From positions 3,906,770 through 3,970,769 of the forward strand of contig CP092081.1 of the NCBI GenBank assembly GCA_022226935.1: DNA of 64,000 nucleotides, given 5' to 3'. Position 1 is the first letter of the stretch; each line of letters begins with the position of its first letter. A program made the translations under genes and the position numbers. This DNA comes from Nitrospira sp. GTDB lineage: Bacteria > Nitrospirota > Nitrospiria > Nitrospirales > Nitrospiraceae. A model generated the notes under the pieces. It was not told the DNA's origin. It ran no database searches and saw only the letters and a list, made by a program, of their open reading frames with translations. Positions 19,108-31,218 of this stretch are shown here, one piece after another.

Positions 19108-20007
19108 TCAGCGGGGTTTCACCAGCCGTTGCAGGCTGGCGCCCGTCGCAAGGCGCGCGAACTGGAGCTTCAAGCCGTTGACCCTGGCGAGGTAGCTGCC
19201 GGCATTGTGATCCCCGCATTTATGGTGGGGAGTGAGGTGAAAGCCGCGAGCGGCGAAGGCGTGGCCCGCTCCTGCCCCGCAAAGGTGGATCAGAGCGGCG
19301 AGGTCCTGTTTCTGCTGTCTGGTGATAGCGGCATTTCGCCGGGAGCCGATTGCCGCGGCGACCTGACGGTCGAGCAGCGCGGCAGTCAGTTCGATGGCAT
19401 GGCTCGGAACAATGCGCGTGTAGAGACTGTTGAACCAGCAGGAATGAACCTCGTTCCACGGGCCGTCCTCGACCACCACATGGTTGTGGATGCAGTAGCG
19501 TTTTGCCTCTCGAAATGTGCCATCGGTCAACTGGAACATCCCGACTGCGCTGGAAGCTGGCCGGTACCAGTCGAAGGGGTTCCAGGATAATCGCCACCGC
19601 CAATAGGTTCGTGCCACGGGGTTGCCCGCTCCCTCTACCTGAGCTAGCGCCGCGAGAAGGTCCGGCGTGATGATTGCCGTCGAATGTTCCCGAAAGAGCG
19701 GGCCGTATTCCTGCCACGTGGCCGCAGGACGTTTGTCCAGCGCATCCTCCAGGGGGAACAACACTTCGGCCGGTTTATTGATCGCATGATAGGTCCAGTT
19801 CAAGATCAGCCAGAGACAGCCGATGAGGATGGCGCCGATGAGAAGGCGCGGCACCGGATGGGTGTTTCCCACGGCGCGCAGGAACGCGCGAAGGTCGCGC
19901 CAACGGCGACCGGTGAATCGCCAGAGCGAGGTGAGCGTGAGCCGGTGACGGGAGCGACGTCTGGGGTGGAGATACGTGCCCGCACGATGTGTCACTCGAG
20001 GCGCCAT
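19108..20007 (-). CDS. Membrane-anchored lytic transglycosylase (SLT domain)
   Basis: A 299-aa protein with a basic N-terminus, one membrane helix (about 54-73) and a periplasmic domain. The SLT-type motif has the probable catalytic Glu in ALAQVEGAGNPVA and the downstream segment SSAVGMFQLTDGTF. Such enzymes cut the glycan strand of peptidoglycan to give 1,6-anhydro ends. GAGGAG abuts the ATG at 20007, which is unusually close; GTG at 19995 is a possible alternative start. It follows the DUF4124-type gene on the same strand, so both may serve envelope remodelling. Confidence 0.85.
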   Translation of the reverse strand: MAPRVTHRAGTYLHPRRRSRHRLTLTSLWRFTGRRWRDLRAFLRAVGNTHPVPRLLIGAILIGCLWLILNWTYHAINKPAEVLFPLEDALDKRPAATWQEYGPLFREHSTAIITPDLLAALAQVEGAGNPVARTYWRWRLSWNPFDWYRPASSAVGMFQLTDGTFREAKRYCIHNHVVVEDGPWNEVHSCWFNSLYTRIVPSHAIELTAALLDRQVAAAIGSRRNAAITRQQKQDLAALIHLCGAGAGHAFAARGFHLTPHHKCGDHNAGSYLARVNGLKLQFARLATGASLQRLVKPR

Positions 20008-20117
20008 CTCCTCACTATAACCGAAATGGATTCGCGAGCCGTCTACTTCTTCTCGACCGCCTGCGAAGGTCGTTCAACAACAGTCCCGCATCGCGGAGGC
20101 TTCCGCCCATGGGCTTG

Positions 20118-21395
20118 TTACCGGCCGTGGTGACCGCCGCTGCTGTGGGAATGGCCGCCCCCGCCTCGCCCCGCAGAGCCGCCGGATGATCGAGGTGCCA
20201 TGCTGATCGATGGGCTGTGCTGCGGCATCGACGGAAGACTCTGAACGTTCGGCGGCGTGGGGCGCCAGAAATGGTTGGGATGTACCTGGTAGGGTGCCGC
20301 TTGCGGGGTGTATTGCGGAGTCGAGGGAACCGATCGTGGTGTCGGGATGACCACCACGTCGCCTACCTTGGCCTGCTGGCCCTGGCTGTTGAGTCGCGGC
20401 GAGGCCTGCTGTTGATGCGCAGGGGGCAGAGGCGGGACCAACAGCGAGGGGCGCGGCGGTGTTGAGGACGGCGGTTGTGCGGGCGGAGCGCTGTTGTTGT
20501 AGGCCGTGATCGTCCGTTGCGCGAGCGGGAGGTGGCGATGATGCGGCGAGAGGCGTTGGGCTTGAAGTAACAGGCCGTTGATGCCAGATATTCCGAACCA
20601 CGGATACGAGGCGAAACCTAATGTCGGATAGGTCCAACTTGTCCAGGCCTGCGACAGGAGCGCGTTGGCCTGCATCTGGTCGAGCATATCCTGGCGTTGA
20701 TCCGTGTAGTACTGCACGTCGGAAGCAGTCGAGGCGGCGGCCAGCGCGCGGTTGGTGTCGTCGACTTGCGCCTGGAGTCGATCGGTTTCCGCCCGGAGCG
20801 CGAGGAGTTCCTGCCGGGCCTGGTCGTTTTCCCTGAGCGCGGCAATCGCGTGAACCACGTCCTGTGGCTCGACTTCCCCCGTGATGTCCACACGAATCAC
20901 CACTTGGTCTTGCTCCAGCCTCGTGGTTACCGTCTGGTCGATCACCTTGACCACTCCCGCGGTGAAGCTGCGGATATCGTCTCGCGTGACGTTCAAGTCG
21001 CGCACTTCGGTAATACGTTCAATGTAGGTCGCGACCTGGTCGAGCGCGTCCTGCTTCGCGGCTTCCGTTGCCAGGCGAACGGCATCGGCGCGGTTGTCAT
21101 GATCACCCAGGCGGTATTCGCCGCTGGCCGAGATGGTACGAATTGGCGAAGAAATGGTCGGGATGACAGGAGTAACTTGCGTCGTTGAGGCCGCCTCCAG
21201 CTCGTGCTGGATCACCTGCTCTCGGTACTGCTCGGGGATGGATTCAAACTCGTTGGTGAAGGTTTGAATGCCAGCGTTGTCGGTGTAGGTATAGATTGGA
21301 GTAGCGCCGACCCCAGGTGCAACGATCAGGGGAGCGGCGAGCCATAGCAGCAGGTACGTGCGAACTGTCACGAATCTGCGGGAGTCGTACATCAT
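20118..21395 (-). CDS. DUF4124-type exported protein with Pro/Gly/His-rich tail
   Basis: A 425-aa protein starting at one of two adjacent ATGs (21395 or 21392) after a G-rich site. It has a signal peptide, then a DUF4124-like segment (IYTYTDNAGIQTFTNE). A region with alternating charge follows (about 90-190), reminiscent of LPP20-type domains, then a coiled coil. The last 150 residues are low-complexity, rich in Pro, Gln, Ser and, at the very end, Gly and His, which could bind metal or cell wall. The function is unknown. It lies downstream of the sensor kinase gene on the same strand with a gap of about 210 nt. Confidence 0.75.
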   Translation of the reverse strand: MMYDSRRFVTVRTYLLLWLAAPLIVAPGVGATPIYTYTDNAGIQTFTNEFESIPEQYREQVIQHELEAASTTQVTPVIPTISSPIRTISASGEYRLGDHDNRADAVRLATEAAKQDALDQVATYIERITEVRDLNVTRDDIRSFTAGVVKVIDQTVTTRLEQDQVVIRVDITGEVEPQDVVHAIAALRENDQARQELLALRAETDRLQAQVDDTNRALAAASTASDVQYYTDQRQDMLDQMQANALLSQAWTSWTYPTLGFASYPWFGISGINGLLLQAQRLSPHHRHLPLAQRTITAYNNSAPPAQPPSSTPPRPSLLVPPLPPAHQQQASPRLNSQGQQAKVGDVVVIPTPRSVPSTPQYTPQAAPYQVHPNHFWRPTPPNVQSLPSMPQHSPSISMAPRSSGGSAGRGGGGHSHSSGGHHGR

Positions 21396-21604
21396 CAAGC
21401 CCCCCCGTTCGCCACAGTCAGAATAACACATTCGGCAGGGGTATGGCTGAGAGCGCGGCTTGGATAAGTTCGCGGTGGAAGGGTCGGTCTTGTCGCCCGT
21501 GAGCCCGGCTCAGGAACGGTGGGAGGAATCTGCCTGCGGATCGGACTGCTGGTCTGACTCTGCTGGCTCTGGTGGCCGTAGCAGGGATAAGGTGTGTCTC
21601 TGCT

Positions 21605-24349
21605 TCATGCCGTTGAGTTCGGTCGGCTGATTACGCGCGCAAACCAGTGGTTCACGACCTGTTCAAGTTCGTTCGGGTCAAATGGCTTGAGAATATAGGC
21701 TTGAGCACCCAGACCCATCGAACGAACGGCAAGGTCCTTGGATTCGGCGGCGGTGATGATCACAATGGGAAGTTGTTGATTCGACGTCCTCACCTGACGC
21801 AGCACCTCCAGACCGTTGATCCCGGGCATGCCGATATCCAGGAGAACTCCTGAAAACCGGCATGCTCGAATCATCTTTACGGCCTGATTTCCATCCACGG
21901 CCGTCGCGACCTCATAACCGTCGGCGCTCAGGCGATCCACGAGAAGCTGCCGAATATCGGGATCGTCATCCACAATGAGCAGGCGTTTCCGTGTGGCCTG
22001 ACCGGATAGTGTGGGTGAAGAAGCGGGTATTACTGGCAGTATGACGGAGAATTCCGTGCCTATCCCTGGCTGGCTGCGCACCGCGACCTGCCCGTTATGA
22101 AGATCGACGAGCGTTTTGACGATGGATAATCCGAGCCCGAGGCCTTTCGACCCGCTGCGCGCTTCCTGCTCCATGCGAAAGAATGGATCGAATATTTTTT
22201 CGAGGAATTCTGGCGGAATTCCAGGACCGGTGTCGCAGACGCAAATGCTGGCCTGGGCCGACTGTAGTGTGGTGACACGGACTGAAACCATGCCTGCTCG
22301 CTGCGTGAACTTGATGGCATTGTGTACGAGATTGGTGACGATCTGAATCAACCGGTCTCGGTCCGCCCACACGATGACAGGGGACGGCGGATACTCAGCC
22401 GTGAAGAGTTGCTCTTTCTCCAGGGCGAGAGGGCGTAATTGCTCAAGCACCTCGGCGATGCAGCGCTCAAGATCAACTTCGGCAGGCGACAACGTCAATT
22501 GCCCGGTTTCGATTCTCGTGCGGTCCAGAAGGTCATTGATCATGCGAATGAGGCGGCCGACATTGTCGACGATACGGCCCAAGTACCGCTGTTGCTTCTC
22601 GTTCAGTGGTCCGGTCAACCCGTCGAGCAGGTTTTCGACAAACCCTTTGACCGAAGTCAGCGGCGTTCTGAGCTCATGAGAAACATGCGAGAGAAAAAGC
22701 GAACGTGATCGGTCGGCACGTTCCAATTCGGCGGTGCGTTCACGAACTTTCGATTCCAAGCCGATGTTCATCTCCTCGATCTGCGCATAAGCCGCGGCAT
22801 TGTCGAAAGCGATCGAGACCTGGTTGCCGAGCGTGACCATCAGCTCCAAGTCTTCGCTCGTCAAGGTGTTGGGTGCCGTACGATCGACCGTGAGCGTTCC
22901 GAGGATCCGGCCCTTTGCGATCAAGGGCACCCAGATCAGAGACCTGGTGCCGGTGAGGAGCGCCAATTCCTGGTTGGCCGGATGCAAGTGCTCCCATAGA
23001 TCGGCGATATCCTGGACGAGAAGCGGTTTGCCGTCATGCAGAGCAGAAGCCGGAAAACCTTTCGGATCCGAAACCGGCAATTCCCGGCGCCGGACGAATT
23101 CTGCAATGTCTTCCGAAACACCGAGGATTCGTCCGTCGTATAAAATCCGGCGATCCGGGTCGTAAAAGCTGATCATCGCGCGGTCGTAATGGAGGTCTTG
23201 GATGAGGGTCCCCAGGACGGTTTGCACCAGGGATTCACGGTCCAGCGTGGAGTTGAATCCAAGCCCTGCCCGGTTGAGCGCCGTGAGCTGGCTGACTTTT
23301 CTCCGAAGTTCTACCCGTGTCTGCTCCTGCTCCACGAACGCGTCGCGCAAGTCCTCGTATCGCGCCTCTACGAATTGCATTTGCTCCCGGATCAGCGATT
23401 CGCGTCGGCGGGCGAGGCTGCGTTGACGGAGTTCGGTGACGAGTGCAGTCAGGGTGGTGGGTATCAGAATAAGGAGCAGCGCCTCCACTCCCGACATGGC
23501 GGGATAGTAGCGGCGAAGATAGGTCCACGCCAGCATGGCAGCAAGCAGAGAGCCCAGGAACCAGTAGGACAGTGCCGGCTCGGGATGCCATCGGACCTCC
23601 CATTCGCACCAGGGATCTCCATTGACGATGCAGGCCCGATCCGTCACGGTGGCGGGCGGACCTCCGTGAATCAGCGTGGGGGCTGCCACCATGCGGCCTT
23701 TTGTGGAGGCACAGACCTGTTGTGCGCAAGCCTTGAGGTAGGGGCCGAATTGCCGGAGGGTATGGTCGGTAAAGCGCAGGCGGTAGATCATCGAATGATC
23801 GGTCACCTCCGCGACTTCACATTCGACGGTCCCCTGGGTATATCGCTGGGCCCAATAGAGCGCAAGCCGGGAGAATTGGGACAATGAAAAGGGCCTGGCC
23901 AGCACGCGAAAGACGGGCGAGATAACCTTGGTCAACCCGGTATTGAAATGAAAGTCCGGATCGCCCGAGAGTTGTTTGCAGAACTCGCGAAGGTAGCTGA
24001 GAAATTCATAGGAATAACTGTTCCATTCTTTCCTGAGAAACGCGGGGGTGACATGATACGCCGAGTCCGGTATGCGCTCGTTTAAGAGACGGCATACCTG
24101 CTCTACTGCGGCGTCCGCCGCGTCTCGCCCCGCGGCCTTTTCCACACATTTTTCCAGATGCTGAATGCTGGACAAGACGAGGGTGCCGCTCACGTCAGCG
24201 ATCTTGTGTCCCTGCTCATCGATCCCGAATGGACGAAACGCCATCACCGGACGTTCGAGAATGGTGTGGTCCTTCGTCAGAAGCAACCAGGGCCCCTCGT
24301 CCACGCCTCCTGGAAGGACAGGGGGGCTCGCCATCGTTCCGTTAGGCAT
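21605..24349 (-). CDS. Hybrid sensor histidine kinase with V4R-like input domain, GAF, HisKA, HATPase and receiver
   Basis: A 914-aa protein whose ATG at 24349 lies inside the last codons of the lipoxygenase-like gene (8-nt overlap), implying coupled translation. The N-terminal domain (about 85-245) ends in CIVNGDPWCEWEVRW, resembling V4R-type small-molecule sensors. Two membrane helices follow (near 258 and 290), then a coiled coil, a GAF domain (about 350-505), and HisKA with the phosphorylated His in HVSHELRTPL (about 556). HATPase motifs are DTGPGIPPEF and GLGLGL. A C-terminal receiver has DDD and the phosphoacceptor Asp in LLDIGMPG. There is no output domain, so the signal must pass to another protein. 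Its operon mates suggest it senses fatty acids or oxylipins, which is an inference. Confidence 0.93.
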   Translation of the reverse strand: MPNGTMASPPVLPGGVDEGPWLLLTKDHTILERPVMAFRPFGIDEQGHKIADVSGTLVLSSIQHLEKCVEKAAGRDAADAAVEQVCRLLNERIPDSAYHVTPAFLRKEWNSYSYEFLSYLREFCKQLSGDPDFHFNTGLTKVISPVFRVLARPFSLSQFSRLALYWAQRYTQGTVECEVAEVTDHSMIYRLRFTDHTLRQFGPYLKACAQQVCASTKGRMVAAPTLIHGGPPATVTDRACIVNGDPWCEWEVRWHPEPALSYWFLGSLLAAMLAWTYLRRYYPAMSGVEALLLILIPTTLTALVTELRQRSLARRRESLIREQMQFVEARYEDLRDAFVEQEQTRVELRRKVSQLTALNRAGLGFNSTLDRESLVQTVLGTLIQDLHYDRAMISFYDPDRRILYDGRILGVSEDIAEFVRRRELPVSDPKGFPASALHDGKPLLVQDIADLWEHLHPANQELALLTGTRSLIWVPLIAKGRILGTLTVDRTAPNTLTSEDLELMVTLGNQVSIAFDNAAAYAQIEEMNIGLESKVRERTAELERADRSRSLFLSHVSHELRTPLTSVKGFVENLLDGLTGPLNEKQQRYLGRIVDNVGRLIRMINDLLDRTRIETGQLTLSPAEVDLERCIAEVLEQLRPLALEKEQLFTAEYPPSPVIVWADRDRLIQIVTNLVHNAIKFTQRAGMVSVRVTTLQSAQASICVCDTGPGIPPEFLEKIFDPFFRMEQEARSGSKGLGLGLSIVKTLVDLHNGQVAVRSQPGIGTEFSVILPVIPASSPTLSGQATRKRLLIVDDDPDIRQLLVDRLSADGYEVATAVDGNQAVKMIRACRFSGVLLDIGMPGINGLEVLRQVRTSNQQLPIVIITAAESKDLAVRSMGLGAQAYILKPFDPNELEQVVNHWFARVISRPNSTA

Positions 24350-25940
24350 TGATATTCGCCTCAAGATCGGCCGGGTACAACGTCCACGGTGCCCACGGTT
24401 TTCGCTCCATCTTCCGTTGAAGGCGGGCCAAATCGAGTCGGAAACGCGCGAAGGCTGCTTCCGCGCGTGGGTGCCGGTCAGGACGGCCGGATTCTACAAG
24501 GGCGAGGGGCGCATAGTCCTGCAGCAGGGGCACCCGGACCACATTGAGAATGTAGTTGGAGTTGACCAGCCGCTGATAGACATCTTCGGGCATCCGGCGG
24601 CCATCTCGGTAGACCCGGACGGGATGGGTATGTGCCCACAGTTGATAGTTCCATAACTGGGTACCGAGCTGTTCATGCTGGACGGATACCAGATAGATGA
24701 GCCGGGCCACGACTCGCGCCAACGTGGCACAGGTGAGCGTGGTTGATATGAGGCCGAGCCCATTCGGCAGCAGGCGCTCCAATTCAGCCAGCCAGTTACG
24801 GATCGATTGATCCGTCCGGAGCTCCTCGTCCGTATAGTACAGGCGTAGATACCGTTCGGCATGAGCTTGGATCACCCGAAAGATCCGCCGGCAGTTGGCG
24901 AAGGTTTGCATCGGCAGGTCGCTGTCGAGCAGGCCGCGATGGCGCGCATCTTCTTCGGGATCGCATGCGCGCAGATTGAAATCCTGACCGGCCTTGCCTA
25001 TGAGTTGGCATAATCCGGAATAGGTCAGACTGTAGATGGCCTCAAAATCTCCGTCTGGCATCAGCTGACCAAGGGTGGCCAATCGATTACTCGCATGCGT
25101 GCCGACCATGTGGGGCCACAGCAGCCGGCAGAGCGGGTGATCGGGCGGCAGGTGGTTGCGGGTGGCTGCTGAGAAATACTCTCCTCCGATCAGGTGCGTC
25201 CAGGTCCAGTGCCGAACCAGCGCCGTATGAGTCGTGGCAGCGCACATGGCAATACGCGTTGCCAGCGGCCAGTTTGCATCATCGGGATGAATCGAGCCGA
25301 GTTCACAGCGTACTCGAATGGGCCTGAGTGAGGTATGCGCGGGATCCGCCTTGAACAACACATGCGCCCAGGGAGCATAGAGATTAGAATGGTGACTGTA
25401 CGACCCGAGTTCTTCCAGATCCCATTCAAAACCATCGGAACTGCCGTGGACCTTACGGAGATATCCCGCATAGGGTCCTCGAAGCGCCAGCATGCCCAAA
25501 TCCGGAACACCCTGGAGCTCGACCGGCATCGTGGGGGGACGAAGTATCCGCTGGGAATCGAGTCGAACTGCCGCCGCCTGCTGCAGGACTGTCTGTCGAT
25601 GACGATGGCTATAAGCCTCGTCCAGTGCCTGATGAGGACTTGCTGCAATTTCAGGTCTTCCGGCCTGCATGGGAGAAAAGAATGTGCACGCTTTCGCAAG
25701 CAAGCGCATCATGCTTTCTTCGCTGGTCTGCGTTTCATCTTTCGGAACCTGCTCGGCTACCCGTATGCCGGATATGGGAATGGCGGGATAGGCTTCGTTC
25801 AGAGGAATCAGCGCCACCTGTGCACGCATCGGGGCAATCGTTGTGACGTCTTTGGGAACGGTGGCTCGGTATTTTCGCGTGGCGATGCCGTTCCACAGAC
25901 CTTTACGGACCATCCATTGAAAGGAATTAATCAGGGACAT
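24342..25940 (-). CDS. Lipoxygenase-family protein (fatty-acid dioxygenase)
   Basis: A 532-aa protein with the start at 25940 set by AGAGAGGA. The catalytic-domain signature is clear: HWTWTH (H244, H249) matches the paired iron-binding His, followed by the conserved pattern of TRNHLPPDHP, LLWPH and ASNRLA. A third His, H422 in SVQHEQLG, fits the later iron ligand; the residue four places on, Asn or His in many relatives, is Gly here. The chain ends NINA, where most lipoxygenases end in Ile whose carboxylate binds iron. There is no PLAT domain, as in bacterial forms, and no obvious signal peptide. Lipoxygenases insert oxygen into polyunsaturated fatty acids to give hydroperoxides. It lies between the alpha-dioxygenase and kinase genes. 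The altered ligands leave activity uncertain. Confidence 0.85.
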   Translation of the reverse strand: MSLINSFQWMVRKGLWNGIATRKYRATVPKDVTTIAPMRAQVALIPLNEAYPAIPISGIRVAEQVPKDETQTSEESMMRLLAKACTFFSPMQAGRPEIAASPHQALDEAYSHRHRQTVLQQAAAVRLDSQRILRPPTMPVELQGVPDLGMLALRGPYAGYLRKVHGSSDGFEWDLEELGSYSHHSNLYAPWAHVLFKADPAHTSLRPIRVRCELGSIHPDDANWPLATRIAMCAATTHTALVRHWTWTHLIGGEYFSAATRNHLPPDHPLCRLLWPHMVGTHASNRLATLGQLMPDGDFEAIYSLTYSGLCQLIGKAGQDFNLRACDPEEDARHRGLLDSDLPMQTFANCRRIFRVIQAHAERYLRLYYTDEELRTDQSIRNWLAELERLLPNGLGLISTTLTCATLARVVARLIYLVSVQHEQLGTQLWNYQLWAHTHPVRVYRDGRRMPEDVYQRLVNSNYILNVVRVPLLQDYAPLALVESGRPDRHPRAEAAFARFRLDLARLQRKMERKPWAPWTLYPADLEANINA

Positions 25941-26019
25941 GGGGCATCCTCTCTGAGGAAAATTAATCAGCAACGATCAACGCCCAAGCCGTTCTGTTAA
26001 GGTTTCCCTTCCATGGGCT

Positions 26020-27849
26020 CTACTTCCATACCGGCTCATGGACGTGGTGCCATGGGAAGAATGCGTTCTCCAAGCCTCGCAGTGCCGGTGCCAGGGACGG
26101 GTAGTGGCGCAGCAATACGCTTGTGAGATCATGGTCTTGTACCCATTGGATTCCAAGGGGCGTATACACCTCCGGCCGAAAATCCGCGGTGAAAAATCGA
26201 TCGCTTTTGAGCCGGCGCGGCGCCATCAGGGTAAAAATCCGGAAGGCCGTGTCGCTGATGGCAAAACCCGGCGGTGGTGCTTCTGCGTAGAGCCCGACCA
26301 TCAGGTCCAGGCGTTCGAGATCGCCTTGATAGAGATCGTGGAGCTTCTTGGCCCATTCGGGATTCAATTCTTTGAAACTTTTCAGCGGTTTCAAGCGAAG
26401 CATGCGTCTGAACGCATTGTAGCGAGGCACGCCCCGCTCGCGATCGCGAAAGATGTCGATGGCGGCCACATCCAGAATCTCGGGATCCCCATTCGGCAAT
26501 CGCTTGATGCGGCGAAACTCCTGAAGAAAACGCGGGAAATTTCCGAGCGTCAATTGTCCGGGATGAGCCACCCCGAACGAGAACCACAGATTGTCGATGC
26601 CTACTTCGTCGATGGTTGATCGAGTCTTGTTGCCTTGGATGTCGGGGAATGATTTGTATTGACTAAAGGACGAATCGGTCAGCGAGAAGAAGCGGTACTC
26701 ATCGGGGATTAGCGGATGCAGCCGGTAGACCGCGGCAAACTCTTCGGTCATCGCATAAGGCGCCGTATGATGATCTGTGGGTGAGCCAGGAATGCCGCTC
26801 CATACTTCGCTGTCGCTGAGCCGTCCCATTCGCGTTCGGATCTGTTTGCCGAGGAGCCCCCACCAGTTGGCTTTCATGCCGGTGTCAAGTGTGGGATGTT
26901 GGAGCAGGGCGGGTGTCCACTCCACCGTATGGATTTTGGCGATCAGAGCGGCATTAATGAGGCGAGCTTTTTGAAAGAGTTGCTCATCTGTCCAGCGGGG
27001 ATAGTGCTGGAATAGCCTCTCGCAGATGGCATTGTGTTCTGAGGCAAAAAGCGTATGAAACAGGCTGAGGCCGATCCAGTAATTGTCGTTGAAGCCGGTG
27101 AGATCGATTCCCGGGAGTTGCCCGTCGAGTTCGCCCATCGATGGCAGGCGTCCCTGGTCGAGTTTGAGTTTTCCGTCTCGGTGCGAACGTACGTCCTGTT
27201 GCCTCTGTGTGCTGCTGCCATAGAGCTGTGAACCATCCCACCAATGGGTTTCCGTATTGAGGAAGATGGGGATTTGGGCCGGACAACAGCCTGCCGCGGC
27301 CTTCCTCGTCCGGCGAACCTTCATCGGATTGTCGCGCCACGTGTCGCCTTCTGCCAAGGCGATCGGAGCCGAGGCGTCATTCTCCTGCTGATGGCCGAAC
27401 CAGTCGTGAACCTGAAACTGAATCCAGGCGGCGGCCAGAAGATTCAGCGAAGTTGCCGGGATGAAGTGCGTGCGAGTCATGAGCAACCGGCTGATGGCAC
27501 GGGGGCTCGGTGTTTCGAGACCCGGTTCGGCGGGGGCAGAGATGATGTTGAATGGCGCATTGCGACCAAAGGGACAACCAGCGCCGCCCATCGAGGGAGC
27601 CTGAAGATCGTTGTGGGAGCCGTCTGCCCGCCGTTCATCAAGGTCTTTGCTGTGAAACGGACAGTGGCTCGTTCCGGTTCCAGCTACGAGGGGGCCTGTG
27701 TCGAAGAGATTCCAGCGTCGTAGGTCATGCCGGAGCGCGACTAAATTGCCAATGCCGAGGATCTTCGGAAGACGATGCCAGGGGAGAACCCGGTTCAGTT
27801 GCCGGTAGCACCATGCCAGAATATTTAACGCGCGGTCCTTGCGCTTCAT
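26020..27849 (-). CDS. Fatty-acid alpha-dioxygenase-like haem peroxidase
   Basis: A 609-aa member of the animal haem peroxidase superfamily, closest in pattern to plant alpha-dioxygenases. It has AAAWIQFQVHDWFGH with the distal His (H148), the AVYRLHPLIPDEYR segment with the probable radical Tyr (Y375) and proximal haem His (H378), and the late motif ERGVPRYNAFRR. The C-terminal GFAISDTAFRIF segment is also typical. Alpha-dioxygenases add oxygen to C-2 of fatty acids, giving 2-hydroperoxides that decay to aldehydes one carbon shorter. There is no signal peptide. It is the first gene of an operon with the lipoxygenase (80-nt gap) and the sensor kinase. A related cyclo-oxygenase or linoleate diol synthase activity is the main alternative. 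Confidence 0.88.
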   Translation of the reverse strand: MKRKDRALNILAWCYRQLNRVLPWHRLPKILGIGNLVALRHDLRRWNLFDTGPLVAGTGTSHCPFHSKDLDERRADGSHNDLQAPSMGGAGCPFGRNAPFNIISAPAEPGLETPSPRAISRLLMTRTHFIPATSLNLLAAAWIQFQVHDWFGHQQENDASAPIALAEGDTWRDNPMKVRRTRKAAAGCCPAQIPIFLNTETHWWDGSQLYGSSTQRQQDVRSHRDGKLKLDQGRLPSMGELDGQLPGIDLTGFNDNYWIGLSLFHTLFASEHNAICERLFQHYPRWTDEQLFQKARLINAALIAKIHTVEWTPALLQHPTLDTGMKANWWGLLGKQIRTRMGRLSDSEVWSGIPGSPTDHHTAPYAMTEEFAAVYRLHPLIPDEYRFFSLTDSSFSQYKSFPDIQGNKTRSTIDEVGIDNLWFSFGVAHPGQLTLGNFPRFLQEFRRIKRLPNGDPEILDVAAIDIFRDRERGVPRYNAFRRMLRLKPLKSFKELNPEWAKKLHDLYQGDLERLDLMVGLYAEAPPPGFAISDTAFRIFTLMAPRRLKSDRFFTADFRPEVYTPLGIQWVQDHDLTSVLLRHYPSLAPALRGLENAFFPWHHVHEPVWK

Positions 27850-28866
27850 GGGGCCTCATGCCGGTACAGAGGGGACGATTAGGGAGGTGATGATAATTGA
27901 ACCTGCGGCGCCATCGGCTCAGCCCCTTTGTGATGAGTAGGAAGTTGCCGGTTGGGATCGTGGCTTCCAGGAAAAGACACGCTGTCCCTTGCTCATGAGT
28001 GAGCGGAAGGCAAGGGACGTACCGTTTTTATCGCCGATACGTCGGCCCCTCGTGTCGGCAGGGACTCTTGAGTTCTGACATGGGTTTAGGGATGGCCGTT
28101 TGCCTCGGCTCACTAGAGCCGGACAGTCGGAGCTCTTTCACCCGTCAAGGCGAGGTATCTTTTCCGATACAGCATCAATCGAAAAGGATACAGAACAACC
28201 GGCAGCAAGGGTCGAACTGAGGGGAAAGCGGCTGACCAAGCAGCATTGACTGAGAATCAAGCGCGTAGGCTCAGCGCAACAATCTCCACATTGTGGCTCT
28301 TCCGTTCCAGAAATGGAAAAACTCTCAGTGAGCGGGTCGTATTCCCGTCTCCTCCCGCGCGCACAGATTCCCAAGAGCAGAATGTACGCGTCAAGCAAGA
28401 GAAAAATTGGTTGTTGTAGGTTTGTGGGGCTGCCACCGTTTGTGGCCATCTCAAACTTTCTATACGGACACCATGGATCGCCGCGGGATCGGGCAGCCTT
28501 TAGTACGTTTCAAAAACTGGACGCCGTCGCTGGTACCTCAGTAGAGCTTGTCAAGGAACAAGGCGAGTTTACTTGTGCTACCTCCGCTGAATGGTTCGGG
28601 CCGTCCGATGCGACTGGTCCGGCAGTTCGCCGGAGCGGCCGGGGGCACTGGTCTTCGCCATCAGTACCGACCGGAAACAGGCCTAGTTTACCGCCAACCG
28701 TCATAGCTCTCCGGACCGACCGGCATGCGACCTGGTTGATCAGGCAAAGCTATTCATGTGGTCATAGCACTCAGTGTAGAGCCGAAAAATAGGTGAGAGA
28801 TTTGGCGCAGATCTGAGTTCGAAGAATGCGAGCCAGAGGAAGGTTGTAATTTCGGCGCGATCCACC
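27850..28866. other. Long intergenic region of lower GC, no recognisable gene
   Basis: About 1 kb without a convincing reading frame. The open frames present lack ribosome binding sites and protein-like composition. It should hold the promoter of the alpha-dioxygenase operon, but I find no strong match. Composition is visibly less GC-rich than the neighbours, so it may be a decayed gene or acquired DNA. Confidence 0.5.
27984..28018. promoter_or_regulatory. 9-bp inverted repeat upstream of the oxylipin-type operon
   Basis: GTCCCTTGC (27984-27992) and GCAAGGGAC (28010-28018) form perfect arms around a 17-nt spacer, about 135 bp upstream of the alpha-dioxygenase start. It may be a regulator site or a hairpin. 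The TGTCCC half resembles the palindrome at 1493, which may be chance. Confidence 0.35.
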
Positions 28867-29547
28867 TCACTGCGTGAGTGGACTCGAGGATGATGGGCCA
28901 GGAGCCGAAACGATGGAAGGCCCCGATAAGACATGCTTGTGCTGGCTCTCCTGAAGAATGGCTCGATGGAGGTCGTAGACCACCTGAGTCTCCGTCGCTT
29001 GTAGGCCTTCTCTGAATGGCATGGCAAACAGGAGAAACAACTGCACCCAGGTTGCGACGGTTTCCGATTGTTTAAATTCTCCGAGGGAACGTCCGTCTCG
29101 CTCGGTGAACGTGGCGGTCACACTAAATGCGGCGGTGCTTTTTTGGGGCACAACAAGAGAGGAGAGACCGAACGTAAATCCCAGCAGGAATGACAGTGTT
29201 TGGCTGTATTCGCCATGCATGTGAATGGCAATATCGACCCGGACGTCCGTGGGCTCATCCTCTCCGAGTTTCACCTCCGAAAATAATCCCGATTCTTCGA
29301 ACGCCTTTCCCGCCTGCGTTCGCCATTGTCCCAAAAAGTTCGATTGCACTTTGTCCGCAGGAATCTGATCATCATTGACCCAGGCTTGTCCGGTCACAAA
29401 CAAATTGACCGAAGGCTTCTTTTCACCGGCCTTGAGCGGCCACTCGGTGATCGAAGTTCGGTTATCGTCCCGAAAGCTTGCACAGCCTCCGAGCAATAAT
29501 GAAGTGGTCAGACTAAGGGCTGTGAGCAAGGCGATGGTCGGTTTCAT
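28867..29547 (-). CDS. Putative lipoprotein, function unknown
   Basis: A 226-aa protein starting at the ATG at 29547 after CAGGAGG. It has a lipoprotein signal peptide ending in LLLGGC (acylated Cys at 22). The mature part has a mixed alpha/beta pattern and a hydrophobic Gly-rich stretch (TLSFLLGFTFGLSSLVVP) that may touch the membrane. The tail is Ser/Pro-rich. The family is not recognised. It is monocistronic and divergent from the FHA-PrsW gene. Confidence 0.75.
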   Translation of the reverse strand: MKPTIALLTALSLTTSLLLGGCASFRDDNRTSITEWPLKAGEKKPSVNLFVTGQAWVNDDQIPADKVQSNFLGQWRTQAGKAFEESGLFSEVKLGEDEPTDVRVDIAIHMHGEYSQTLSFLLGFTFGLSSLVVPQKSTAAFSVTATFTERDGRSLGEFKQSETVATWVQLFLLFAMPFREGLQATETQVVYDLHRAILQESQHKHVLSGPSIVSAPGPSSSSPLTQ

Positions 29548-29886
29548 GAAGCTATGGGCCTCCTGAATCAGGCGGTCTCTCCTATTGATCAAGAAAAAAT
29601 GGCTCCGCTGCCTGGAAAAGGATAGCAAGCTATGGCCGTCTGTCCAGAAAGGGGGGAGGAAATTGTCGGCAGGGGTTTGGGATCCCGTGGCTGCAGAGGA
29701 TGAGCGATTTCAATCTAGAGTATTCCGTTGATTAATAAGTGGGCGTTCATTTTTGTTCATCCACTGACCGCCGGTTCTCGCCATGCCGCGTTTTTCCAAA
29801 ACAATCCTGGTTGCAATTGAAGCCCTTAAGGGAACTTGTGTATTCTTGCTGCCCATTGCCGTCACCCTGCTGTACGAGGTGCCACC
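29548..29886. other. Divergent intergenic region
   Basis: It separates the lipoprotein gene (minus) from the FHA-PrsW gene (plus). A candidate plus-strand promoter lies at 29817-29846. I see no other element. Confidence 0.5.
29817..29846 (+). promoter_or_regulatory. Candidate promoter with internal palindrome, FHA-PrsW gene
   Basis: TTGAAG and TATTCT are spaced 18 bp apart, with the perfect palindrome CCCTTAAGGG (29823-29832) between them, where a repressor could act. The gene starts 41 nt downstream. Consensus match only. Confidence 0.35.
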
Positions 29887-31218
29887 ATGAGCCACTCCGT
29901 ATCGTCCGTTCCTTCCGATCTCTTTCTGATCTGTATCTCCGGTCCCGATCTCGGCAAACGCATCGCGCTCCGTGCCGGTGAGGTGCTTATCGGTCGGTCC
30001 CTGCAGTGCGACGTGTTGAGTGACGATCAGGATGTGGTGGAGCGGCATGCAGTCGTGCTGTGGCACAATGGGCAATTCGTCTGCCGGGCGGTTCAGGGGA
30101 TCGTCTATTTGGATGGGCACAAGACGATGGAATCCATCCTGACGCCGCAACAGCAGATACGGATGGGGCGTTCGCTGTGGCAACTCAGCGGACCATCCGC
30201 TGCACGAGGCGCCGGCGGGTGGATCGAAGACTTGAGCGACCGCATCAGCGAGGTCGCCGGGGTGGAGCGCCTTCAAGGATTCAACGCGCGCGACATGTTT
30301 TCCGACGTGTTGCGTAAGCGTACCGATGAGGAAATTGAAGAGCATTTTACCGCAGGAACGTTAACGACCACCCCTCCGATCGAGAAGGTCATGACCGGCT
30401 GGCCGAAGCCCTGGGTCTTTTTCAAGACCTTCATCCTCTCTGCGGTCGTCTACCTGGCGTTTGTGTTCGCCATGAAGGAATTCAACAACGCCAATCTGGT
30501 GCCGGGCCTCATCATGACAGGCGCGTTTCTGATTCCTTCGTCCTTGCTCATCTTCTTTTTTGAAATGAACGTTCTCCGGAATGTCTCGCTGTACCAGGTC
30601 GTCAAGATGGTGATGTTCGGCGGGGTGACTTCGTTGGTCCTGTCGCTCTTTCTCTTCAAGTGGACCGACCTCGACAGCTGGATGGGTGCGATGAGTGCCG
30701 GAATCATCGAAGAGACGGGAAAGGCTTTGGCGCTGTTGCTCATCATCAACAATCAGAAATACCGGACGGCGCTCAATGGGCTGCTGTTCGGAGCCGCGGT
30801 GGGTACAGGCTTCTCCGCGTTCGAGTCCGCGGGCTATGCGCTCATGGCGGGATTGAGCGGTGGTCAGTCCGCCATGTTGCACAGCATCACGGTACGCGGA
30901 CTCTTAAGCATGTTAGGCCTGCATATCGTGTGGACCTCGATGGTCGGTGCCGCGCTCTGGCGCATCAGGGGAGATCGATCGTTCACCATCGACATGGTGT
31001 ACGACAAGCGATTCCTCCGCATCTTCGGATTGGCGGTGGCCCTTCATATGTTTTGGAACGCGCCCTTCAATGTGCCGTTTTATCTCAAGTACATCGCCTT
31101 GGGGTTCATTGCATGGGTCGTGAATTTGGCGCTGGTGCAGATCGGCCTCAAGGAAGTGAAGGCGCTGCAAGAGGCACAGGCATCCGAGGTCGAAGAGTCG
31201 AGATTGAGAACGGCCTAA
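29887..31218 (+). CDS. FHA domain fused to a PrsW-type intramembrane protease
   Basis: A 443-aa protein starting at the ATG at 29887 after GAGGTG. The first ~100 residues form an FHA fold (GEVLIGRSLQCDV, then VERHAVVLWHNG), which in other proteins binds phosphothreonine. After a linker come seven or eight membrane helices with PrsW hallmarks: the acidic EETGK motif, FSAFESAGY, and LHIVW and LHMFW histidines. PrsW proteases cut membrane-spanning proteins such as anti-sigma factors. The fusion suggests proteolysis recruited or gated by a phosphoprotein. The FHA core reads VERHA where SxRHA is usual, so binding may be altered. No anti-sigma factor gene is adjacent. Confidence 0.88.
   Translation: MSHSVSSVPSDLFLICISGPDLGKRIALRAGEVLIGRSLQCDVLSDDQDVVERHAVVLWHNGQFVCRAVQGIVYLDGHKTMESILTPQQQIRMGRSLWQLSGPSAARGAGGWIEDLSDRISEVAGVERLQGFNARDMFSDVLRKRTDEEIEEHFTAGTLTTTPPIEKVMTGWPKPWVFFKTFILSAVVYLAFVFAMKEFNNANLVPGLIMTGAFLIPSSLLIFFFEMNVLRNVSLYQVVKMVMFGGVTSLVLSLFLFKWTDLDSWMGAMSAGIIEETGKALALLLIINNQKYRTALNGLLFGAAVGTGFSAFESAGYALMAGLSGGQSAMLHSITVRGLLSMLGLHIVWTSMVGAALWRIRGDRSFTIDMVYDKRFLRIFGLAVALHMFWNAPFNVPFYLKYIALGFIAWVVNLALVQIGLKEVKALQEAQASEVEESRLRTA

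Follow-up and report, generated by a model that had tools for sequence, protein, structure and literature searches.

Based on our observations, we suggest that three adjacent genes of Nitrospira sp. constitute a module for the oxidation and sensing of fatty acids, in which an alpha-dioxygenase (aDOX) and a lipoxygenase-like (LOX-like) protein are coupled to a hybrid histidine kinase acting as a sensor for a hydrophobic ligand. That the operon is coupled to fatty acids is well supported; for the module as a whole, we rate the chances as slightly better than even. It is the conserved set of aDOX, LOX-like and kinase genes, often found beside a gene for the channel FadL, that points to the oxidation and sensing of fatty acids or their products. 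This reading is further favoured by a natural fusion of the two enzyme genes in the genome G205, by the FadL and patatin neighbours, by the intact aDOX residues, by purifying selection acting on all three genes (as judged by dN/dS), and by the precedent of the ODS system of Pseudomonas aeruginosa (see below).

The genes are located in a window of 64,000 nucleotides (the whole stretch of DNA that was analysed), contained in a host genome of 4.23 Mb that consists of a single contig. As described in the initial annotation, they lie on one strand; the open reading frames (ORFs) are closely spaced and arranged in the order aDOX, LOX-like gene and kinase gene:

26020..27849, minus strand: alpha-dioxygenase (aDOX), 609 aa; Pfam An_peroxidase, 353 bits
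24342..25940, minus strand: lipoxygenase-like protein, 532 aa from the conserved ATG; Pfam Lipoxygenase, 36.9 bits
21605..24349, minus strand: hybrid sensor histidine kinase with V4R-like domain, membrane region, GAF, HisKA, HATPase_c and receiver domains; Pfam and an alignment of eight orthologues
24342..24349, minus strand: overlap of the LOX-like stop and the kinase start, 8 nt, ATGCCTAA, read directly from the sequence

The spacing between aDOX and the LOX-like gene is 79 nt. The ORF list begins the kinase at TTG 24364, probably too early; conservation favours ATG 24349 as the start, and with it the LOX-like and kinase genes overlap by exactly the 8 nt noted previously. An identical overlap is present in the related loci, even in L015, where identity between the LOX-like proteins is down to 58%. 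An Rfam search of positions 20000-29000 gave no matches, and scans for promoters and terminators stayed below what shuffled sequence would lead one to expect. Immediately 3' of the kinase, on the same strand, lies a gene (20118-21431) for a 437-aa protein of no Pfam family; it is retained at that place in the loci L010-L013 and L016, and is a possible fourth member of the Nitrospira form of the operon. On the strand opposite to the operon, positions 29836-31218 encode a PrsW-type intramembrane protease with a fused FHA domain.

The initial annotation had made its proposal depend on conservation of the neighbourhood in related genomes, and the trio is indeed kept in Nitrospira. Our survey covered 296 Nitrospirota genomes, including 29 of Nitrospira. 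The LOX-like gene was found in seven of the latter, in every case preceded by aDOX and followed by the kinase gene, the aDOX gene being cut by a contig end in two of them (G015 and G026). Matches to PF00305 were present in 12 of the 296 genomes, all of them members of the LOX-like family, and in each of the 12 a kinase of the same family was adjacent to the LOX-like gene or one gene away.

In G205, a member of a sister genus, aDOX and the LOX-like protein form a single reading frame of 1741 aa, located on a 4.5 Mb contig. The linker of this fusion contains about twelve predicted hydrophobic segments (membrane helices), and its gene is surrounded by genes for a patatin-like phospholipase, FadL, a RoxA-like cytochrome and the kinase. 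FadL follows immediately behind the kinase in L061, L062 and L063, and in L060 the contig with the LOX-like gene also carries patatin and an animal-haem peroxidase. The genomes G111 and G171 retain LOX, kinase and FadL without aDOX nearby, and G568, an acidobacterium, has the LOX-like gene beside transporters, with neither aDOX nor kinase adjoining. From these gene contents, the LOX-kinase pair is the Nitrospirota core, with aDOX as its usual companion; the arrangement in G568 means that the trio is not universal. In the window itself neither FadL nor patatin adjoins the operon, which speaks against the module proposed above. Chance co-location of the three genes was considered and is rejected in view of the conservation data.

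As judged from its sequence, aDOX is a convincing, genuine member of the alpha-dioxygenase family, in agreement with its earlier description as an alpha-dioxygenase-like haem peroxidase. Its best PDB match is the plant alpha-dioxygenase 4HHR (E 1e-118, residues 16-601). The distal His H148, H307, the catalytic Tyr Y375, the proximal His H378 and Arg R545 are aligned with 4HHR and invariant in six homologues; the family's catalytic Tyr, its proximal and distal haem His and its carboxylate-binding Arg are all present. Y375, H378, H148 and R545 align with Tyr386, His389, His163 and Arg565 of AtDOX1. The protein is also 50% identical to a 'peroxidase family protein' of Calothrix sp. PCC 6303, presumably the characterised CalDOX. 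CalDOX makes fatty aldehydes, and the alpha-dioxygenase tree presented in the same work names five bacterial phyla, Nitrospirota not among them (PMC8720084). By its family membership and conserved catalytic residues, the Nitrospira enzyme would oxygenate free fatty acids at C-2, giving 2-hydroperoxy acids and aldehydes one carbon shorter.

The second gene product had been annotated as a lipoxygenase-like iron enzyme. Homology to the family holds: the Pfam PF00305 score of 36.9 bits exceeds the cut-off of 23.6, with the match limited to residues 232-456 of the longer LOX-like ORF (less than half its length), and profile-profile alignment (hhalign) with bacterial lipoxygenases gave 99.7% over 355 columns. 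The normal iron site does not. Its ligand columns were aligned to four plasmid-borne bacterial lipoxygenases, and 16 LOX-like sequences from two phyla (Nitrospirota and two acidobacterial genomes) were compared. In ligand cluster 1 (His-x4-His) the first His is absent from all 16 sequences, being replaced by Thr, Leu, Met or Val (T239 in the window), and the cluster reads TALVRH, LSLVRH, MTLVRH or VSLVRH instead of HExxxH. In cluster 2 (His, then Asn, His or Ser four positions on) H422 is retained and all 16 sequences have Gly at position 426, a change that calls for caution, as Gly stands at the fourth ligand position of one Nostoc plasmid lipoxygenase as well. In place of the terminal Ile or Val that binds the metal through its carboxylate in lipoxygenases, every chain ends in a strictly conserved N-Ala, although the terminal carboxylate is still available. 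Every member has thus lost two of four ligand side chains, while keeping H244, H249 and H422; together with the terminal Ala, this leaves the 'iron enzyme' step unsupported, and it also counts against the proposed module.

A conventional iron lipoxygenase yielding PUFA hydroperoxides is therefore very improbable. The Pfam match above the cut-off would agree with such an enzyme, as would the top Foldseek matches of a poor AlphaFold2 model of the protein, which are lipoxygenases, but the canonical forms of both ligand clusters, held to be essential for true enzymes (PMC6612559), are missing. The AlphaFold2 models of the LOX-like protein (pLDDT 42) and of the kinase input domain (pLDDT 53) are of low confidence; they carry no claim about metal geometry or fold, and weigh against our preferred reading.

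Decay of the LOX-like gene does not account for these replacements, as its dN/dS is 0.12-0.15; it evolves faster than aDOX and the kinase, yet is constrained, and a pseudogene is ruled out by this ratio together with the invariant motifs. H244, H249, H422 and the N-Ala chain end are invariant across both phyla, and two new motifs invariant throughout the family, WNYQ and D-x-YQR, suggest a remodelled active site. H244-x4-H249 could in principle represent a shifted His pair. The position of H249 is conserved in ordinary lipoxygenases without a ligand role, and its equivalent is present in all four plasmid lipoxygenases compared. Such features have to be weighed against the view that the LOX-like protein is a pseudo-enzyme, i.e. 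a metal-free lipoxygenase fold that binds fatty acid or tethers aDOX to the membrane. We regard this as a serious possibility, though still a doubtful one: the replacement of ligand 1 His by Thr, Leu, Met or Val, of ligand 4 by Gly and of the terminal Ile by Ala in all members, the faster evolution under constraint and the fusion to aDOX in G205 are all in line with it, but the invariance of the three His and of N-Ala over two phyla would be unexpected without a bound metal, and the WNYQ and D-x-YQR motifs hint at a remodelled rather than an abandoned site. It concerns the LOX-like part alone, and is compatible with a fatty-acid oxidation and sensing module for the remainder.

Within that module, the LOX-like protein would share the lipid pool of aDOX, as the linkage and the natural fusion suggest, and may process, bind or pass on oxidised lipid, or have a rearranged metal site. 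Since the canonical iron site is replaced, a role of this kind is likelier than that of a standard PUFA lipoxygenase. With bacterial lipoxygenases (PA-LOX, cyanobacterial mini-LOX and Myxococcus LOX) it has in common the homology of the catalytic domain, including the core HPL..LL.PH, and a short, mini-LOX-like length; it differs from them in the replacement of ligand 1 His, of ligand 4 Asn/His and of the terminal Ile by Ala, in a one-residue insertion after H249, and in the invariant WNYQ and D-x-YQR. The family might constitute a natural experiment on the extent of iron-site change that is tolerated under purifying selection.

The third gene encodes a hybrid histidine kinase, as had been proposed, its four C-terminal domains being matched by Pfam:

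23576..24283, minus strand: V4R-like input domain, kinase residues about 23-258; conserved columns in orthologues and 28 related domains
22808..23242, minus strand: GAF domain; Pfam PF01590, 64 bits
22502..22705, minus strand: HisKA domain (HELRTPL); Pfam PF00512, 75.6 bits
22031..22363, minus strand: HATPase_c domain; Pfam PF02518, 106 bits
21653..21979, minus strand: C-terminal receiver domain; Pfam PF00072, 104 bits

The N-terminal stretch of about 260 residues matches no Pfam family significantly, and GAF is preceded by a hydrophobic membrane region; the input domain is probably cytoplasmic. Its earlier assignment as V4R-like is plausible on sequence grounds, although the Pfam V4R match is below threshold (best E 0.15, in one of 12 members). 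The candidate residues for a V4R-type zinc site, which consists of three Cys plus an acidic residue, are Cys213, Asp237, Cys240 and Cys248: the three Cys are conserved, and an acidic residue stands three positions before C240 in nearly all of the 28 domains; the kinase of L016 has Ser in place of C248. The Cys spacing is 27/8, compared with 26/8 for the zinc Cys in the phenol-binding V4R domain of DmpR (PMC7264223). As in the sensors DmpR, MopR and PoxR, a domain with three Cys at near-identical spacing lies N-terminal to the output module; in those proteins, however, the output is an AAA+ activator and not a histidine kinase, and the Nitrospira domain remains below Pfam V4R significance. A profile search with the input domain matched no PDB sequence. 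An H-NOX identity was considered and rejected: the Foldseek match (E 3e-4, TM 0.2) came from the low-confidence model, and the YxSxR haem motif is absent from all 28 domains. As H-NOX and V4R domains belong to one structural superfamily, this weak match is compatible with V4R.

The kinase input domain occurs in 92 of the 296 Nitrospirota genomes, mostly without aDOX or LOX, which argues against the proposed module. The kinase adjoins FadL in 11 of the 16 paralogue regions examined, and this frequent pairing fits a hydrophobic ligand without naming which. FadL-family channels can carry aromatics as well (PMC7728783). With phenol bound by the V4R domain of DmpR, this is a further point against the preferred reading, and an aromatic ligand stays a live rival. 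The kinase would then respond to some hydrophobic compound, aromatic or otherwise, much as DmpR does to phenol, and its position next to the oxygenases would reflect a shared outer-membrane uptake island. We find this improbable: the V4R-like Cys pattern and the widespread kinase-FadL pairs without oxygenases are consistent with it, but all LOX-family genes of the phylum sample accompany the kinase family, and the kinase tree, in which most LOX-linked kinases group together with FadL-linked ones interspersed, requires at least two changes of the association.

The host genome contains a second module (L084 4978-10972; G000:C1 about 2138977-2144971): on one strand, the gene for a two-haem RoxA-like cytochrome (two CXXCH motifs) is followed by that for a paralogous V4R-like hybrid kinase and then by FadL. 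Similar sets occur in L085, L086 and L099. In L099 (6557-12100) a kinase of the same family, 1847 aa long, contains four tandem V4R-like domains.

Returning to the proposed oxidation and sensing module, the co-translated kinase would read a hydrophobic ligand through its V4R-like domain, most likely a free fatty acid or a product of its oxidation, and would signal by phosphotransfer, the domains for which are present. In relatives, the product of the FadL gene would carry fatty acids through the outer membrane, whereas that of the patatin gene would free them from phospholipid. The self-contained lipid-oxidation system envisaged in the initial annotation is retained here in part: the coupling of the enzymes, evident from the natural fusion, and the FadL and patatin context in relatives agree with it, whereas its conventional iron lipoxygenase has to be given up. 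A modified version, which we hold to be unlikely, is self-contained oxylipin signalling, in which aDOX and a LOX-fold enzyme with a rebuilt metal site act one after the other at the membrane to make a new oxidised lipid, with the co-translated V4R-like kinase as its receptor. The rebuilt site may comprise, for example, two or three His and the C-terminal carboxylate.

A rival view, that the operon serves catabolism or detoxification only, has in our opinion a similarly limited chance. Here aDOX and the LOX-like protein would degrade exogenous or membrane-derived free fatty acids, the kinase would just induce the genes, and the oxidised lipid would carry no signal. FadL and patatin adjoin in relatives, the usual partner of the kinase family is a channel rather than an oxygenase, and kinase paralogues lie beside a two-haem cytochrome, all of which would suit this view. 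However, there is no gene for beta-oxidation, acyl-CoA ligase or aldehyde dehydrogenase among the annotated neighbours, and translation of the kinase is coupled to that of the LOX-like gene.

In the open-access literature we found no earlier description of an aDOX-LOX-kinase operon. Described bacterial oxylipin signalling systems are very few, chiefly the Pseudomonas ODS. In P. aeruginosa the ODS oxylipin synthases are encoded beside their regulator, and a FadL-type exporter is cited in the same work (PMC6377657). The Nitrospira operon appears to resemble ODS in logic and not in parts: in both, genes for fatty-acid oxygenases lie next to that for a regulator, and the pathway includes an outer-membrane protein of the FadL type (for the present operon, among relatives), but ODS uses diol synthases of the di-haem cytochrome c peroxidase type and the LysR regulator OdsR, whereas an An_peroxidase aDOX, a LOX-like protein and a hybrid kinase, unrelated to the ODS components, are found here. 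If true, this would be a second, unrelated design of oxylipin signalling, in nitrite oxidisers, and the conserved enzyme-enzyme-sensor unit would make it practicable to test if bacteria perceive fatty acids that they themselves have oxidised.

The individual enzymes also have counterparts elsewhere. Plant and cyanobacterial aDOX (PDB 4HHR and 4KVJ; CalDOX and LepDOX) share with the Nitrospira protein full-length homology, the catalytic Tyr, the haem His and the substrate Arg; the latter differs in its operon with a LOX-like gene and a kinase, and in being fused once to the LOX-like protein. Cyanobacterial catalase-LOX fusions (PMC11719350) likewise join a haem enzyme to a lipoxygenase domain, but in G205 the haem enzyme is of the aDOX family, the linker is a long multi-helix membrane region and the LOX is non-canonical. 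On a plasmid of Rhizobium phaseoli a cytochrome c gene comes after an aDOX-type gene (L116 3954-8451), and GMC oxidoreductase and patatin genes lie near aDOX on a plasmid of Calothrix PCC 6303 (L115 4992-11740). Distinct animal-haem peroxidases of 970-1060 aa, distant from aDOX, recur in Nitrospirota (L059 2495-5677, L060 2533-5685, L067 8514-11444, L068 8098-11040), in two cases no more than about 10 kb away from the LOX-like gene.
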